Origin: Cellulomonas endophytica
GTDB taxonomy: Bacteria; Actinomycetota; Actinomycetes; Actinomycetales; Cellulomonadaceae
Assembly (NCBI RefSeq): GCF_004123805.1
Contig: NZ_RWJX01000008.1
Span: 1 to 64,000 of the forward strand
Direction: 5' to 3'
Length of the DNA stretch: 64,000 nucleotides
The notes below the pieces were generated by a model. It did not search any database, was not told the origin of the DNA, and worked only from the letters and a program-made list of their open reading frames with translations. Within the stretch, counting starts at the first letter, position 1, and every line of letters starts with the position of its first letter. This document shows positions 22,812-29,210 of the stretch, in pieces. The translations under genes and the position numbers were made by a program.

Positions 22812-22930
22812 GCCGGGGGGCGGCACCGGGAGGACGGGGCGCCGGCCGTCCCGCATGGCGGGCAGGGCGTCTCGTCCGGTGGACGGACACGGGATGACAG
22901 AGGACCCGGCACGCGTGCGAGACTGCCGCC

Positions 22931-23044
22931 ATGTCGACCGACCGTGCCGTGCGCCTCGTCGCGCGCCGTCACGTCGACCTCCTGCGCACGGCCTCCGCGG
23001 CCTGCGGCACGCCCGCCTGTTGTCGGACGGCCCGCGCCCTCTGA
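22931..23044 (+). CDS. Cysteine-containing leader peptide of the sulfate-reduction operon
   Basis: Small frame of 37 codons directly upstream of the sulfite reductase gene. It contains RRHVDLLRTASAAC (residues 12-25), which matches the pattern R-x-H-V-D-L-x-R-x-x-S-x-x-C of actinobacterial leader peptides placed before sulfur genes, then a tandem Cys30-Cys31 (codons TGT TGT at 23018-23023). Such short frames respond to cysteine supply by ribosome stalling. GAGACT stands 6 bases before the ATG, so the mRNA may be leaderless. Two alternative hairpins follow. The identification rests on the motif and position. Confidence 0.75.
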   Translation: MSTDRAVRLVARRHVDLLRTASAACGTPACCRTARAL

Positions 23045-23062
23045 CCGCACCCGCACGTCCCC

Positions 23063-23123
23063 GGGTGCCGGCCGCCAGCACCCGCGACGTGACGGCGGCC
23101 GGCCCCTCCCCTCACCACGGAGG
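23063..23123 (+). promoter_or_regulatory. Candidate attenuator between the leader peptide and sulfite reductase
   Basis: GGGTGC (23063-23068) can pair with GCACCC (23078-23083), or GCCGGCCGCC (23067-23076) can pair with GGCGGCCGGC (23094-23103). The two hairpins share bases 23067-23076 and exclude each other. CCTCC (23105-23109) can also mask the ribosome binding site GGAGG (23119-23123). This is the expected layout for leader-peptide control of the operon; no U tract is present, so control may be at translation or Rho level. Confidence 0.5.
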
Positions 23124-23131
23124 TCTCCGCC

Positions 23132-24820
23132 ATGTCGGCCGACACCGGCTCGCCCGTCCGGGCGACCCCGCGCCCGACGCGCACGCAGGACCAGGGCCAG
23201 TGGGCCCTCGGCAGCCGTGAGCCCCTCAACCCCAACGAGGTGTTCAAGCGCGAGGACGACGGCCTCAACGTGCGCGCGCGCATCGAGGAGGTCTACGCCA
23301 AGCAGGGCTTCGCCTCGATCGCCCCGGCCGACCTGCGCGGCCGGATGCGCTGGTGGGGGCTGTACACCCAGCGCAAGCCCGGGATCGACGGCGGTCGCAC
23401 CGCCGTCCTGGAGCCGCACGAGCTCGACGACGAGTACTTCATGCTCCGGGTCCGCCTCGACGGCGGCCGCCTCTCGCTCGCGCAGCTGCGCGCGGTCGCC
23501 GACGTCTCCGAGCGGTACGCCCGCGGCACGGCCGACATCACCGACCGCCAGAACATCCAGCTGCACTGGGTCCGCATCGAGGACGTCCCCGCCATCTGGG
23601 AGCGGCTCGAGGCCGTCGGCCTGTCGACCACGGAGGCCTGCGGCGACACGCCGCGCGTCGTCCTCGGCTCCCCCGTCGCCGGGGTCGCGGCGGACGAGAT
23701 CCTCGACGGCACGCCCGCGATCGACGCGATCACGGAGCGCTACATCGGCGACCCGGCCTTCTCGAACCTGCCCCGCAAGTTCAAGACCGCCGTCTCCGGC
23801 AACCCGCACCTGGACGTCGTGCACGAGATCAACGACGTCTCCTTCGTCGGCGTCGTCCACCCCGAGCACGGCCCGGGCTTCGACGTCTGGGTCGGCGGTG
23901 GCCTGTCGACCTCGGCGCACCTCGCGCAGCGCCTGGGCGCCTGGGTCCCGATCGAGGAGGTCCCCGACGTGTGGGCGGGGGTCATCGGCATCTTCCGCGA
24001 CTACGGCTACCGCCGGCTGCGCAACCGTGCGCGCCTGAAGTACCTCGTCGCGGACTGGGGCGCGGAGCGCTTCCGGGACGTGCTCGAGACGGAGTACCTG
24101 CACCGGCCGCTGCTCGACGGGCCGGCGCCCGTCGCGGCGCCGGGCCGCCGGGACCACCTCGGCGTCCACCGGCAGAAGGACGGGCGGTTCTACGTCGGCG
24201 TCAGCCCGACGGTCGGCCGCGTCTCGGGGGGCCTGCTCGCCCGCGTCGCCGACCTCGTCGAGGCCGCCGGCTCCGACCGCGTCCGCCTCACCGTGGAGCA
24301 GAAGCTGCTCGTGCTCGACGTGCCGGAGGACCGGGCCGACGCCCTCGTGGCGGGCCTCGACGCGCTGGGGCTGCCCGCGCACCCCTCCGAGTTCCGGCGC
24401 GGCACCATCGCCTGCACCGGCATCGAGTACTGCAAGCTCGCGATCGTCGAGACGAAGGCACGCTCGGCGGCGGCGGTCGCCTCGCTCGAGGCCGCCCTGC
24501 CGACGTTCGCGCACCCGCTGACCCTCAACGTCAACGGCTGCCCCAACTCCTGCGCCCGCATCCAGACCGCCGACATCGGGCTCAAGGGCCAGATCGTCAC
24601 GGACGACGAGGGCCGCCAGGTCGAGGGCTTCCAGGTGCACCTGGGCGGCACGCTGGACGGCGCCTCGGCCTTCGGGCGCAAGCTGCGCGGCCACAAGGTC
24701 GTCGCCGACGAGCTGCCGCAGTACGTGGAGCGGCTCGCCCGGGGCTTCGCGGAGGGCCGGCAGGGCGACGAGACGTTCGCCCGGTGGGCGCAGCGGGCCG
24801 ACGAGGAGGCCCTGCGGTGA
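23132..24820 (+). CDS. sir: Assimilatory sulfite reductase (ferredoxin), NirA type
   Basis: Protein of 562 residues reducing sulfite to sulfide with six electrons. It has the two-fold nitrite/sulfite reductase repeat. Siroheme and [4Fe-4S] ligands are Cys428 and Cys434 (CTGIEYC) and Cys470 and Cys474 (NGCPNSC). Conserved ADITDRQNIQLHWVRIEDVP near 130-150 and PRKFKTAVSGN near 220 bind siroheme and substrate. Length and motifs match the mycobacterial NirA ferredoxin-dependent enzyme. ATG at 23132 has GGAGG 8 bases upstream. It is the first enzyme gene of the operon, preceded by a leader peptide and overlapping the next gene by GTGA. Confidence 0.94.
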   Translation: MSADTGSPVRATPRPTRTQDQGQWALGSREPLNPNEVFKREDDGLNVRARIEEVYAKQGFASIAPADLRGRMRWWGLYTQRKPGIDGGRTAVLEPHELDDEYFMLRVRLDGGRLSLAQLRAVADVSERYARGTADITDRQNIQLHWVRIEDVPAIWERLEAVGLSTTEACGDTPRVVLGSPVAGVAADEILDGTPAIDAITERYIGDPAFSNLPRKFKTAVSGNPHLDVVHEINDVSFVGVVHPEHGPGFDVWVGGGLSTSAHLAQRLGAWVPIEEVPDVWAGVIGIFRDYGYRRLRNRARLKYLVADWGAERFRDVLETEYLHRPLLDGPAPVAAPGRRDHLGVHRQKDGRFYVGVSPTVGRVSGGLLARVADLVEAAGSDRVRLTVEQKLLVLDVPEDRADALVAGLDALGLPAHPSEFRRGTIACTGIEYCKLAIVETKARSAAAVASLEAALPTFAHPLTLNVNGCPNSCARIQTADIGLKGQIVTDDEGRQVEGFQVHLGGTLDGASAFGRKLRGHKVVADELPQYVERLARGFAEGRQGDETFARWAQRADEEALR

Positions 24821-24963
24821 GCGAGGAGCGGGCGGTGCCCTACCACTGCCCCTTCTGCGGCGGCGAGGACCTGCGCCCGGCGGGGCCCGAGCACGGCACC
24901 TGGGAGTGCCGCTCGTGCCTGCGCGTGTTCGGGGTGCGGCTGATCGGACAGGTGGCGCCATGA
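24817..24963 (+). CDS. Small zinc-ribbon/ferredoxin-like protein, CysX-like
   Basis: Protein of 48 residues with two CxxC pairs, CPFC and CRSC, 16 residues apart, which should bind zinc or an iron-sulfur centre. GTG at 24817 overlaps the sulfite reductase stop and its own stop overlaps cysH (ATGA). The position between sulfite reductase and cysH matches cysX of Corynebacterium, proposed there as a ferredoxin-like electron carrier. The ribbon spacing here looks more like a zinc ribbon than a 2Fe-2S or 4Fe-4S ferredoxin, so a structural or maturation role is possible. Its conservation in position argues that it serves the reductase. Confidence 0.75.
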   Translation: MSEERAVPYHCPFCGGEDLRPAGPEHGTWECRSCLRVFGVRLIGQVAP

Positions 24964-25808
24964 CGGCGGGGACGACGGGCACGAGCACGAGCACGGGCAC
25001 GAGCACGACGACGCGCACGGCGACGGCGGACGGGCTCGCGGGCACGCACGCGGTGCCCGCGGGTGCGACCGCGCTCCCGGCGCCGGACAGGGCGCTGCGC
25101 GCGCTGGCCGCCCGGGCGCAGGCGCGCTTCGCGGCGGCCGAGGCGGCGGCGCCGGACACCTACGAGGCGCGCGTGGCCCTCGCGGGCGATGCGCTGCGGT
25201 GGGCCCACGAGACGTTCGGCGACGACCTCGTCGTGGCGTCCTCCATGGGCGACGAGGTGCTCGTGCACCTGGCGTCGCAGGTGGCGGCCGGCGTCGAGGT
25301 GCTCTTCCTCGACACGGGCTACCACTTCGCGGAGACCATCGGCACGCGCGACGCGGTCGAGGCGACGCTGCCCGTGCGCGTCCGCACGGTGCTGCCGCTG
25401 CTGTCCGTCGCCGAGCAGGACGAGCGGTACGGCGCCCGGCTGCACGACCGCGACCCCGACGCCTGCTGCGCGATGCGCAAGGTGGAGCCCCTGCAGCGCG
25501 GCCTGGCGCCCTACCGCGCCTGGGTGACGGGCATGCGGCGCGAGGACGCGCCGACCCGCACGGACATCCCCCTCGTCGGGTGGGACGCCCGGCGGTCCAA
25601 GGTCAAGCTCAACCCGGTCGCGGCGTGGACGTCCGCGGACGTGGACCGCTTCGCGGCGGAGAACGGGGTCCTCATGAACCTGCTCCGGGAGGTCGGCTAC
25701 GCCTCCATCGGGTGCGAGCCGTGCACGCGGCCCGTCGCGCCCGGCGAGGACGCCCGCTCGGGCCGCTGGTCCGGCACGGGCAAGGTCGAGTGCGGGCTGC
25801 ACACGTGA
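24960..25808 (+). CDS. cysH: Adenylyl-sulfate (APS) reductase, assimilatory
   Basis: Protein of 282 residues. The pyrophosphate loop SSMGDEV (near 95) and LFLDTGYHFAET (near 117) show the PAPS/APS reductase fold. Two cysteine pairs, Cys169-Cys170 and Cys252-Cys255, are the [4Fe-4S] ligands found in APS but not PAPS reductases, and the catalytic thiol is Cys278 in ECGLH near the end. Together with the lack of an APS kinase gene here this indicates direct reduction of APS to sulfite. The first 30 residues are threonine-rich (GTSTSTGTSTTTRT), encoded by 6-bp-like repeats, and are probably dispensable. Confidence 0.93.
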   Translation: MTAGTTGTSTSTGTSTTTRTATADGLAGTHAVPAGATALPAPDRALRALAARAQARFAAAEAAAPDTYEARVALAGDALRWAHETFGDDLVVASSMGDEVLVHLASQVAAGVEVLFLDTGYHFAETIGTRDAVEATLPVRVRTVLPLLSVAEQDERYGARLHDRDPDACCAMRKVEPLQRGLAPYRAWVTGMRREDAPTRTDIPLVGWDARRSKVKLNPVAAWTSADVDRFAAENGVLMNLLREVGYASIGCEPCTRPVAPGEDARSGRWSGTGKVECGLHT

Positions 25809-26779
25809 GCGCCCCCACCGCCCAGGACGCCCCGACGCCGGACGCCGCGACGTCGGGTCCGGCCCGCCGCGAGGACCTCGAGGGCGTCGCCCTCGGCCAG
25901 CTCGACGACCTCGAGTCCGAGTCCGTCCACATCTTCCGCGAGGTCGTCGGCGAGCTCGAGCGCCCCGTGCTGCTCTTCAGCGGCGGCAAGGACTCGATCG
26001 TCATGCTGCACCTGGCGGTGAAGGCGTTCTGGCCCGCGCCCGTGCCGTTCCCGCTGCTGCACGTCGACACGGGGCACAACTTCCCCGAGGTCCTCGCGCA
26101 CCGCGACGCCACGGTCGAGCGGCTGGGCCTGCGGCTCCTCGTCGCGAGCGTCCAGGACGCGATCGACGCCGGGACGGTCCGCGAGCGCCCCGACGGCACG
26201 CGCAACCCGCTGCAGACCGTCCCGCTCCTCGAGGCGATCGAGGCCGGGCGGTTCGACGCCGTCTTCGGCGGCGGGCGGCGCGACGAGGAGAAGGCCCGCG
26301 CCAAGGAGCGCGTGTTCTCCCTGCGCGACGAGTTCGGCCAGTGGGACCCCCGCCGCCAGCGTCCCGAGCTCTGGGGCCTGTACAACGGCCGGCACCGGCC
26401 CGGCGAGCACGTGCGCGTCTTCCCCCTGTCCAACTGGACCGAGATGGACGTCTGGCTCTACATCGAGCGCGAGGGCATCGACCTGCCGGCGATCTACTAC
26501 GCGCACGAGCGCGAGGTGTTCCTCCGCGACGGCATGTGGCTGACGCCGGGCGGCTGGGGCGGGCCGCGGCCCGGCGAGGGCCTGCAGACGCGCCAGGTGC
26601 GGTACCGGACGGTCGGCGACATGTCCTGCACCGGAGCGGTGGAGTCCGGCGCCGCGACCGTCGCCGACGTCATCGCCGAGGTCGCCGCCAGCCGGCTGAC
26701 CGAGCGCGGCGCGACCCGCGCCGACGACCGCCTCTCGGAGGCGGCCATGGAGGACCGCAAGCGCGAGGGGTACTTCTGA
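25805..26779 (+). CDS. cysD: Sulfate adenylyltransferase subunit 2
   Basis: Protein of 324 residues, the catalytic N-type ATP pyrophosphatase subunit that makes APS from sulfate and ATP with CysN. The PP-loop is LFSGGKDSIVMLHL near residue 60, HVDTGHNFPEVL near 95, FGGGRRDEEKARAKER near 157, and the C-terminal TLSEAAMEDRKREGYF-like end (LSEAAMEDRKREGYF) is characteristic. The first 25 residues are variable. GTG at 25805 overlaps the cysH stop by GTGA and the stop shares one base with cysN (TGATG), so the complex subunits are coupled. Confidence 0.97.
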   Translation: MSAPTAQDAPTPDAATSGPARREDLEGVALGQLDDLESESVHIFREVVGELERPVLLFSGGKDSIVMLHLAVKAFWPAPVPFPLLHVDTGHNFPEVLAHRDATVERLGLRLLVASVQDAIDAGTVRERPDGTRNPLQTVPLLEAIEAGRFDAVFGGGRRDEEKARAKERVFSLRDEFGQWDPRRQRPELWGLYNGRHRPGEHVRVFPLSNWTEMDVWLYIEREGIDLPAIYYAHEREVFLRDGMWLTPGGWGGPRPGEGLQTRQVRYRTVGDMSCTGAVESGAATVADVIAEVAASRLTERGATRADDRLSEAAMEDRKREGYF

Positions 26780-28149
26780 TGCCGACGACCACCGCCGTCC
26801 CGCACCCGCGGACGGGGCCGCACGGCGCGCCGCGCTCGGCCCAGGCCGCGGTGGCGCGCGGGCGCGACCTCCTGCGCCTGGCGACCGCCGGCTCCGTCGA
26901 CGACGGCAAGTCGACCCTCGTCGGGCGGCTGCTGCACGACACGAGGTCCGTGCTGGCCGACCAGCTCGCCGCCGTCGAGCGCGTGAGCGCCGAGCGCGGG
27001 CTGGCCGCGACCGACCTCGCGCTGCTCACGGACGGCCTGCGCGCCGAGCGCGAGCAGGGCATCACCATCGACGTGGCCTACCGCTACTTCGCCACGGACC
27101 GCCGCGCCTTCGTGCTCGCCGACACCCCCGGGCACGTGCAGTACACGCGGAACATGGTCACGGGCGCCTCGACCGCCGAGCTCGCCGTGGTGCTGCTCGA
27201 CGCGCGCAAGGGCGTCCTCGAGCAGACCCGCCGGCACCTGTCCGTCGCCGCCCTGCTGCGCGTGCCGCACGTCGTGCTCGCCGTGAACAAGATGGACCTC
27301 GTCGGGGACGACGAGGGCGTGTTCCGCGCGCACGCGGCGCAGGTCGACGCCCTCGCCGCCGAGCTCGGGCTCCCCGACGTCACCGCGATCCCGCTGTCCG
27401 CCCTGCGCGGGGACAACGTCGTGGAGCGGTCCGCCGCGATGCCCTGGTACGCCGGGCCGACGCTGCTCGAGCACCTCGAGGCCGTGCCCGTCGAGCGGGA
27501 CCCGCGCCTCGAGCCGTTCCGCTTCCCCGTGCAGCACGTCGTCCGCCCGCAGACCCCCGAGTTCCCGGACTACCGGGGCTACGCGGGCCGGGTCGAGTCC
27601 GGCGGCGTCGCCGTGGGCGACACCGTCGTGGTCCAGCCGGCGGGGCGCACGACGACCGTCGTCGGCATCGACACCTACGACGGGCCGCTGCAGCGTGCCT
27701 TCGCCCCGCGGTCGGTGACCCTGCGGCTGGCCGACGAGATCGACGTCAGCCGCGGCGACCTCCTCGCCGCGGCCGACGCCCCCGCCACCGTCACGCAGGA
27801 CCTCGTCGGGACGGTCTGCTGGGTCGGCGACACGCCGGCCGCGCCGCGCCGGCGGGTGCTCGTGCGCACGGGCACCCGCACCGTCCGCGGCGTGCTCCGG
27901 TCGCTCGACGAGCGGCTCGACGTGACGACGCTCGTGCGCGAGCCCTCCCCCGCCACCCTCGAGCTCAACGCCATCGGCCGGGTCACCCTGCGCCTGGCCG
28001 AGCCCGTGGCCGTCGACCCCTACGCCCAGCTGCGGCACGGCGGGGCCTTCCTGCTCGTCGACGAGGCCGACGGCATGACGCTGGCCGCGGGCATGGTGGG
28101 CGACCCGCTCGCCGTGCGGGGCGGTGCGGCGGCCGGCGGCCGGGCCTGA
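26779..28149 (+). CDS. cysN: Sulfate adenylyltransferase subunit 1 (GTPase)
   Basis: Protein of 456 residues related to EF-Tu. G1 is AGSVDDGKST near residue 40, G2 lies in EREQGITIDVAYRYF, G3 is DTPGHVQYTRNM and G4 is NKMD. Its GTP hydrolysis drives the unfavourable adenylylation of sulfate by CysD. There is no C-terminal APS kinase domain, unlike the mycobacterial CysNC fusion, and no cysC nearby, consistent with an APS-reductase route. The last 15 residues are a glycine/alanine tail. It is the last gene of the operon; no sulfate transporter genes follow in the window. Confidence 0.96.
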   Translation: MPTTTAVPHPRTGPHGAPRSAQAAVARGRDLLRLATAGSVDDGKSTLVGRLLHDTRSVLADQLAAVERVSAERGLAATDLALLTDGLRAEREQGITIDVAYRYFATDRRAFVLADTPGHVQYTRNMVTGASTAELAVVLLDARKGVLEQTRRHLSVAALLRVPHVVLAVNKMDLVGDDEGVFRAHAAQVDALAAELGLPDVTAIPLSALRGDNVVERSAAMPWYAGPTLLEHLEAVPVERDPRLEPFRFPVQHVVRPQTPEFPDYRGYAGRVESGGVAVGDTVVVQPAGRTTTVVGIDTYDGPLQRAFAPRSVTLRLADEIDVSRGDLLAAADAPATVTQDLVGTVCWVGDTPAAPRRRVLVRTGTRTVRGVLRSLDERLDVTTLVREPSPATLELNAIGRVTLRLAEPVAVDPYAQLRHGGAFLLVDEADGMTLAAGMVGDPLAVRGGAAAGGRA

Positions 28150-28213: not shown

Positions 28214-28219
28214 TACCGT
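28214..28219 (+). promoter_or_regulatory. Leaderless -10 box of the 28.2 kb gene
   Basis: TACCGT is followed by 7 bases and then the in-frame GTG at 28227. It also decides between two possible starts, because the earlier GTG at 28218 overlaps the box. Confidence 0.45.
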
Positions 28220-28226
28220 GTCCGGT

Positions 28227-29210
28227 GTGCGCCGATCCGTCCGTCCCGTCCCGCCCGTGCTGCGCCGCGGCACGGGCCCGGCCGACCCGGACCTGCCGGT
28301 GCTCGACGGCGCCGACGCGGACTGGCTGCGCGCGCGCCTGGTCGCCGAGCTCGGGCGCGCGGGGCTCCCCGGGGCCCGCGCCGACGGCGGGCACGTCACG
28401 GCCGCCGACGGCACGCGGTTCGGCCTCGCCGCCCTCGCCACGGCCCTCGTGGCCGCCCCGCGCCTGTCCTGGGGCGCCCGGGTCCGGCGGCACGCGGCCT
28501 CCCTCGCGCGCCTGGCCGCCACGGCGCTGCCGGCGACGCCCGACGCGCTGCCCGGGGGCCCGGACGGCCGCGAGGGCCTCGTGGCCCGGGTCGTCGGGGA
28601 CGACGGCGGGACGCCCGACGCCGACCGCTACGGCCCGGCGCTCGCGCCCGGGCTGCGCGCCGTGGTGTGCCTCGACACCGGCACGGAGGTGCTCGGCCCC
28701 CTGGACCTGGCCCCGCTGGGCGGCTGGGCGGCGGTCGGCCCCCGCGCCCTCGCGGCCCTGCGCGCGCTGCCGCTGCCGGTCGTCCGCACCCTGCGCACCG
28801 AGGACGGCGACGCCGTGCACGTGCTCGTGAGCGAGGACGTGTTCGGGGCGGGACGGCTGCTCCTGCTCGACGAGGTGCTCGCCGCGACCCTGCGGTGGGA
28901 GCGGCCCGCGCACGGCCTCCTCGTCGCCGTGCCGAACCGCCACGTCGTCGTCGTCCACGCCCTCGAGGAGGCCGCCGCGGTGCCCGCCGCGATGCGCCTC
29001 ATGCTCGCGTTCTCCGCCGCCGCCGCGGCCACGGCGGCGCCCGTGAGCCCGGCCGTGTACCACCGCACCCCCGACGGCGCCCTCGAGCGCCTCACGCACG
29101 GGCCCCTCGTCGACGGGCTGCCGGAGGGCTCACGCCTGCCGGCCGTGCTGGCCGCGCTGCCCCACCGTCGCCCGCGGGACGCCGCACCCGGGGGGCGCGA
29201 GGCGGCCTGA
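28227..29210 (+). CDS. Conserved hypothetical protein between cysN and a ROK kinase gene
   Basis: Protein of 327 residues that I do not recognise with confidence. It is alanine/leucine/arginine-rich, with no clear signal peptide; residues 255-280 ([20 protein letters not shown]) are only mildly hydrophobic. An ordered core near 195-250 reads HVLVSEDVFGAGRLLLLDEVLAATLRWE and GLLVAVPNRHVVVVHALE. The VAVPNRHVVVVH segment recalls the end of DUF1444 (YtpQ-type) proteins, but the match is too short to name it. It has its own predicted leaderless start 77 bases after cysN, so membership in the sulfur operon is uncertain. Confidence 0.6.
   Translation: MRRSVRPVPPVLRRGTGPADPDLPVLDGADADWLRARLVAELGRAGLPGARADGGHVTAADGTRFGLAALATALVAAPRLSWGARVRRHAASLARLAATALPATPDALPGGPDGREGLVARVVGDDGGTPDADRYGPALAPGLRAVVCLDTGTEVLGPLDLAPLGGWAAVGPRALAALRALPLPVVRTLRTEDGDAVHVLVSEDVFGAGRLLLLDEVLAATLRWERPAHGLLVAVPNRHVVVVHALEEAAAVPAAMRLMLAFSAAAAATAAPVSPAVYHRTPDGALERLTHGPLVDGLPEGSRLPAVLAALPHRRPRDAAPGGREAA

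Follow-up and report, generated by a model that had tools for sequence, protein, structure and literature searches.

The cysteine attenuators of mycobacteria reportedly operate, in the model published by Canestrari et al. 2020, by masking of the ribosome binding site that is released by stalled ribosomes, and regulation like that proposed below is already published for mycobacteria. That work is cited for translation attenuation of M. smegmatis cysteine genes (PMC13236596) and on mycobacterial polycysteine attenuators (PMC9094748). Shell et al. 2015 (PMC4633059) describe leaderless Cys-rich short ORFs, one of them before nirA/Msmeg_4527, and Seliverstov et al. 2005 (PMC1262725) describe terminator-less cysteine leader peptides that precede the cys operons in Mycobacterium and in Propionibacterium acnes as well as cbs in Bifidobacterium longum. 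A further system, the uORFC-8-2 motif of Rhodobacterales cysS (PMC8632094), shares tandem Cys codons in the leader ORF with the locus described here and differs in having an intrinsic terminator and predominantly UGC codons.

We analyzed a stretch of 64,000 nucleotides from Cellulomonas endophytica (hereafter the window), all coordinates of which refer to the + strand. A 37-codon frame runs from ATG 22931 to TGA 23044 and encodes MSTDRAVRLVARRHVDLLRTASAACGTPACCRTARAL, with Cys codons at positions 25 (TGC, 23003-23005), 30 (TGT, 23018-23020) and 31 (TGT, 23021-23023), and exactly 87 nt (23045-23131) separate its stop codon from the ATG of the sulfite reductase gene at 23132. Translation and coordinates thereby confirm what an earlier note on this DNA had claimed, namely a 37-codon frame with tandem Cys codons 87 bp ahead of the sulfite reductase. 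The peptide scores 32.6 bits (E 4.2e-8) against the NCBIfam model NF042934, "putative leader peptide" (cis_reg_atten), for which the curated cut-off is 27 bits, and a search of its own genome (4.2 Mb), in which 150 out of 176 candidates were scored, gave no other match above cut-off. Since it passes this cut-off, the leader is of a kind already known, and by sequence it is a well-supported member of that leader-peptide family. The cut-off of the Ms4527A family leader model NF042936 (45 bits) was missed at 26.4 bits, and a search of the whole window for riboswitches, T-boxes and other Rfam families gave no match at the gathering score.

The sulfite reductase gene (sir, NIR_SIR / NirA-like by profile matches, 23132-24820) is the first structural gene after the leader and is followed by cysH (phosphoadenylyl-sulfate reductase, 24906-25808 for the ORF as listed), cysD (sulfate adenylyltransferase small subunit, 25901-26779) and cysN (large subunit, 26857-28149); each of the latter three rests on a profile match, the coordinates of cysD and cysN running from that match to the stop codon, and the starts of all three are not fixed. 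Upstream of the leader lies truA on the opposite strand. Between sir and cysH a 48-codon frame (24817-24963), VSEERAVPYHCPFCGGEDLRPAGPEHGTWECRSCLRVFGVRLIGQVAP, overlaps the sir stop codon (GTGA) and contains two CxxC pairs; it gave no match in NCBIfam. A 330-aa frame past cysN (28218-29207) matched nothing in Pfam (E up to 1) or NCBIfam (E up to 0.001).

The family motif RRHVDLLR (residues 12-19, 22964-22987) was assigned from the translation, the profile match and the codon comparison described below. The Cys position of NF042934, nine codons past the Asp of VDL, is present in the window peptide (Asp 16, Cys 25), while the UGU codons stand 14 and 15 codons past Asp rather than 9, owing to an extra GTPACC stretch. 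Compared with the leaderless polycysteine attenuators of mycobacteria, the locus has in common a short Cys-rich ORF and sulfur genes (sir, cysH, cysD, cysN) after it. Its promoter-like elements lie at the distances that a leaderless transcript would require, and in place of a long Cys run it has a pair at codons 30-31 of 37.

We propose, with a probability of about 0.7, that the window leader is a cysteine-sensing NF042934 peptide, probably leaderless from 22931, which controls the sulfite reductase operon by translation attenuation; most likely it would turn on the sulfate-reduction genes when cysteine is short. When Cys-tRNA is plentiful the ribosome would run off the leader, and the leader RNA would fold onto the Shine-Dalgarno (SD) sequence and start region and shut sir. 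When Cys-tRNA is scarce the ribosome would wait at UGU (here codon 30 or 31, 23018-23023, the stall site proposed from the sequence and the codon comparisons), on or beside the masking segment, and the start region would be open. In this proposal UGU is favored because tRNA-Cys reads it by G-U wobble, which would make it the slower of the two Cys codons and the one that responds more to supply. This mechanism is supported by the ORF, the family membership, the placement of promoter-like elements, a UGU rule and family-wide pairing around UGU; counted against it are the TGC at window codon 25, the unremarkable pairing of the window itself and an SD that stays closed when folding is modeled with a ribosome in place.

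Matches to NF042934 (E up to 1e-4) were found in 225 of the 393 genomes sampled from the window's class, and the 19 of 296 genomes with a match (E up to 1e-5) in a sample of the phylum comprised the window's own genome and 18 others of the same class. Within its taxonomic family, 69 of 221 genomes contained a match (E up to 0.001) and 160 of 221 contained sir (E up to 1e-100). The best 80 matches of a search with the sir protein only were mostly from Streptomyces and Kitasatospora (by title), and 77 of these 80 had an NF042934-type leader; the exceptions (L251, L263 and L281) had no leader by pattern, L263 having only 116 nt of upstream sequence. A single Cys codon was present in 68 of the 77 leaders, e.g., MSGTGIALVSRRHVDLGRMSSAICPAS, and in 53 of the 62 distinct leaders of Streptomyces type. 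Among the best 30 sir loci from the 160 genomes of the window's taxonomic family, the window included, all 30 had a Cys-rich short frame ahead of sir, which contained RRHVDL or RLHVDL in two (the window and L089) and was Cys-rich without the motif in 28, e.g., ...VAADLCVCCCPRSN, a leader for which the NCBIfam search returned no match. In 12 of these 28 unlike leaders (L090-L117) the codons TGC TGC TGT CCG CGG AGC AAC TGA occurred exactly. With two motif-bearing leaders against 28 unlike Cys-rich ones, the leader before sir seems to have been exchanged within the taxonomic family while the cysteine link stayed. The locus is thus one more member of a known family, and the comparison suggests that sir keeps its link to cysteine despite a swapped leader peptide. 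The claim of leader-peptide attenuation in the earlier note is supported as far as a cysteine leader controlling the operon is concerned (NF042934 match, 77 of the best 80 sir loci, 30 of 30 best family loci), whereas the terminator of the classical form was not found.

The placement of upstream elements bears on where the mRNA begins. An ATG stands 14 codons ahead of Asp in 61 of the 62 distinct Streptomyces-type sir leaders (from the best 80 sir matches), and in these 61 the bases upstream of it are near-fixed: TG occupies -15/-14 in 58 and 59 leaders, 59 have an A at -11 and 60 a T at -7, and each base of a TGGAC spanning -36 to -32 is present in 58 to 60 of 61. In the window a candidate extended -10 element, TGcGAGACT (22916-22924; TG 22916-22917, A 22920, T 22924), and a candidate -35 element, TGACA (22895-22899, -36 to -32 from the leader ATG), lie at the same distances from 22931. 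Given this shared placement, the leader mRNA probably starts at ATG 22931 itself and would be leaderless. A simple scan for the strict sigma-70 consensus gave no match at the candidate promoter of the window. A study of S. lividans (PMC8079986) reports promoters with a -35 element nTGACn and 17% leaderless transcripts.

Codon usage at the conserved Cys place was compared in 142 distinct leaders, which remained from 175 loci after removal of repeats. For this collection G051, G056 and G042 were left out of the family list, 60 loci were picked from the class list for spread over taxonomic families in addition to those that the class search itself supplied, and the weak own-genome matches L002 and L003 were excluded; L128 has no motif, and L016, the sole leader without Cys, looks like an ordinary coding match. 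The codon nine places past Asp was TGT in 137 leaders, TGC in four (the window, L082, L186 and L204) and not Cys in one, whereas the putative downstream ORFs of the same loci contained 247 TGC and 21 TGT codons. Other Cys places within the leaders were spelled differently, with TGC 43 and TGT 2 at two codons past Asp and TGC 26 and TGT 14 at seven codons past Asp. The conserved codon was also TGT in all 62 distinct Streptomyces-type sir leaders (from the best 80 sir matches), behind which the sir genes use 99% TGC and 1% TGT, and in 11 of 11 further distinct leaders from the phylum search. In the window's taxonomic family the last CC run ended in TGT in 26 of the 28 unlike sir leaders, or 28 of 30 with the window and L089. 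An amino-acid profile cannot select codon spelling. Because the leaders share ancestry, their counts do not represent independent events, and the presence of the UGU rule in an unlike leader family is a stronger point than the counts. In the window, UGU codons 30 and 31 stand 5 to 6 codons past the conserved one within a GCC TGT TGT CGG block common to L082. Leaders with Cys runs (e.g., CCCCCCSC) mix TGT and TGC, yet have TGT at the family Cys place (L118, L120, L123-L125, L127, L131, L134, L135, L169 and L173).

Pairing of the leaders with the start region of the next gene was evaluated by scoring 12-nt windows of each leader against the region from -28 to +14 of its own gene and of the genes of other loci. 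Of the 142 leaders, 81 were usable (in 8 the search for a gene failed, 47 lacked an SD of 4 nt, and 6 were too close or cut); gene starts were chosen by script, so that some downstream ORFs are surely wrong, and offsets in L001 and L082 were counted from the second UGU. Across the 81 loci, leader windows that begin between 0 and +9 relative to the Cys codon preferred the own start region, with the peak at +6 (own -9.49, permuted -8.07, z -6.1, 0 of 2000 permutations). This preference was smaller between -24 and -3, and it vanished or turned into its opposite between -60 and -33 and between +12 and +48. It persisted in thinned sets of 29 and of 21 unlike loci (p 0.0004 for either set at +6; p 0.001 and 0.005, respectively, at -12), and an earlier version of the test with 85 loci gave the same peak at +6. 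Model duplexes lie across the leader stop codon and the SD in L205 (CCUGACGGG with CCCGUCAGG) and L196 (CCUGACG with CGUCAGG). An alignment of 33 Streptomyces-type sir leaders gave a consensus fold in which the leader's GCCAU is paired with AUGGC at the sir start codon and its UGUCC with GGACG, part of the SD, each pair being kept in 31 to 33 of the 33; with almost invariant columns, this amounts to conservation rather than covariation. A ribosome with UGU in its A site covers, by its size, about the masking segment. The test favors control at the ribosome binding site, an option that the earlier note had left open.

For the window itself the corresponding pairings are weaker. Duplex models place the segment 23021-23031 against the sir start region at 23134-23144 (UGUCGG:CCGACA plus CGGC:GUCG, with one mismatch) and CCUCUG over the leader stop codon (23038-23043) against CGGAGG at 23118-23123, the latter lying farther from UGU than usual. 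Out of 79 foreign start regions, 8 and 9 equal or surpass the own one in pairing with the UGU segment, which makes the window's own pairing weak by itself. The best-ranked leader segment of the window lies elsewhere, at codon 1 (3 of 79), and codons 14 and 20 rank as high as the UGU segment (8 and 6 of 79), while at the matching place of L082 the own region ranks first (0 of 79 foreign regions better). With regard to RBS masking of the kind described for the mycobacterial attenuators, start-region pairing is supported family-wide and is weak for the window. A folding model in which the ribosome was moved codon by codon, beginning at the 8th and ending at the stop (31 positions for L001 and 30 for L082), left the SD closed everywhere, with an unpaired probability of at most 0.20 (L001) and 0.10 (L082), and because it was closed in every state this folding model is uninformative.

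A pairing between the VDLL codons and the SD was considered as an anti-SD of the whole family and rejected. The sequence GACCUCC (codons 16-18, 22976-22982) can pair with GGAGGUC at 23119-23125 and does so in the window's minimum-energy fold, but the family-wide comparison was negative, the Leu codon being CTG in 96, CTC in 37, CTT in 8 and CTA in 1 of 142 leaders. CTC is present in 53 of the 58 Leu-bearing Streptomyces-type leaders, where the idea may hold.

Retention of UGU for the sake of pairing with the start region was likewise rejected in the diverse set. Replacing U with C costs 0.16 kcal/mol with the own and 0.16 kcal/mol with foreign regions (z about 0, 81 loci), and in the model duplexes of these loci the U of UGU is opposite A in 31, opposite G in 13 and unpaired in 37. 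Since the change is no worse for own than for foreign pairing, masking does not explain UGU in that set. In Streptomyces-type sir loci and polyCys loci the U pairs with A in 37 of 41 and 21 of 27 cases, respectively, and there, according to the duplex models, UGU may be kept for pairing. With masking excluded in the diverse set, the remaining simple reason would be decoding, and the wobble idea rests on this exclusion. The anticodon of tRNA-Cys is GCA, which reads UGU by G-U wobble, and UGU and UGC share one tRNA. A broader reading, which we put forward tentatively and consider on balance doubtful, is that Actinomycetes sense cysteine by a single obligatory UGU, a wobble-read codon that selection would hold to a precise position in both of the unlike leader families; slow decoding would make the pause respond to Cys-tRNA supply, the place would lie inside the RNA that masks the start of the next gene, and in the RRxVDLxR family the nascent peptide would aid the pause, for which reason one Cys codon would be enough there. 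Our literature search, which covered sources other than Canestrari et al. 2020, where such a statement may stand, found no mention of cysteine leaders preferring UGU. What deserves a second look is this rule and the position of the codon within the masking segment. From the comparison of leaders two points become testable with small reporters, namely whether the two codons differ in their use as amino-acid sensors and at which place a ribosome has to pause for the next gene to open.

The region between the leader and sir contains inverted repeats at 23047-23053 / 23062-23068 (100%), 23062-23072 / 23074-23084 (91%) and 23064-23081 / 23089-23106 (83%), the last with a perfect core, read from the sequence, at 23067-23076 / 23094-23103. 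From these we delineate hairpin A (23047-23068; 23047-23053 with 23062-23068), hairpin P1 (23062-23084; 23062-23068 with 23078-23084) and hairpin P2 (23067-23103; the perfect core), and a local anti-SD hairpin (23105-23123) can form between CCUCC 23105-23109 and the SD GGAGG 23119-23123 at -6.8 kcal/mol. The hairpins sharing 23067-23076 and the CCTCC/GGAGG pairing that the earlier note had described are accordingly present; its estimate that the hairpins begin about 19 nt past the stop codon does not stand, the first arm (23047) lying two bases past the stop and the second and third repeats beginning from 23062 on. The folding energy of 22931-23140 (z -1.86; 7 of 200 dinucleotide shuffles as good) and of 23045-23140 (z -1.57; 14 of 200) is weakly beyond chance, and the window alone proves no switch.

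One relative with the architecture of the window was found, L082 (= L089), whose sir is 88% identical. An alignment of the two shows conservation of the promoter-like elements, the motif, GCCTGTTGTCGG and the sequence that forms P1, and much of the remainder diverges. The GCACCC right after the stop, which pairs with GGGTGC in hairpin A, is present in both, and CCTCCG/CGGAGG in L082 replaces CCTCC/GGAGG of the window, while the P2 partner differs. Hairpin A, P1 and the SD hairpin are plausible parts and no more, and the switch geometry suggested earlier survives in its elements, the hairpins and the CCTCC/GGAGG pair, but was found in this single other sequence only, where its detailed logic is not the same.

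These repeats could also serve transcription attenuation, in which the position of the ribosome would choose between hairpin A plus P2 and P1, one of these states stopping RNA polymerase with or without Rho. The repeats do compete, the first arm lies where a terminating ribosome would cover it, and the GCACCC-GGGTGC-GCACCC segments recur in L082. We nevertheless regard this as unlikely: no T run follows a hairpin, a scan of 22850-23150 for intrinsic terminators with a U run found none, folding is not strongly beyond that of shuffled sequences, and P2 is not preserved as such in L082, where by our reading the logic of the states differs. For mycobacterial cys leaders, in which they saw no terminator, Seliverstov et al. 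2005 (PMC1262725) suggested for that reason the participation of Rho, a prediction that they themselves call rather weak.

Another improbable account, if taken as the explanation, is that the conserved RRxVDLxR is an arrest peptide acting in the exit tunnel, so that one Cys codon suffices. Across the diverse set the motif retains its residues R, D, L and R while their codons vary roughly like background, which speaks for a role of the peptide, although a profile search favors such sequences and the invariance is thus partly built in by the way the leaders were found. The single Cys codon in 53 of the 62 distinct Streptomyces-type sir leaders (from the best 80 sir matches) fits this account as well, but in the Streptomyces-type set the nucleotides of many motif codons are themselves fixed, and the motif is absent from the 28 unlike leaders that the window's taxonomic family contributed. 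Nascent-chain sensing could act together with translation attenuation, which remains our preferred reading. It is very unlikely that the frame regulates nothing, being a mere relic or an ordinary 5' leader, for although codon 25 departs from the family UGU and the pairing and hairpins of the window are weak, the window and L082 have the promoter-like elements, motif, GCCTGTTGTCGG and P1 in common while much else diverges.

Two further observations concern other members of the family. In the Streptomyces-type sir leaders (L208-L287) the rare codons GGA, TTG and AGT are near-fixed and the leader ORF folds into a consensus stem, so that the short frame may itself contain a structured RNA. Many of the NF042934 leaders from the taxonomic family of the window (L004-L075, of the RRAVDLRRVASALCR type) precede not sir but frames that by eye resemble cation symporters and possibly serve cystine uptake.
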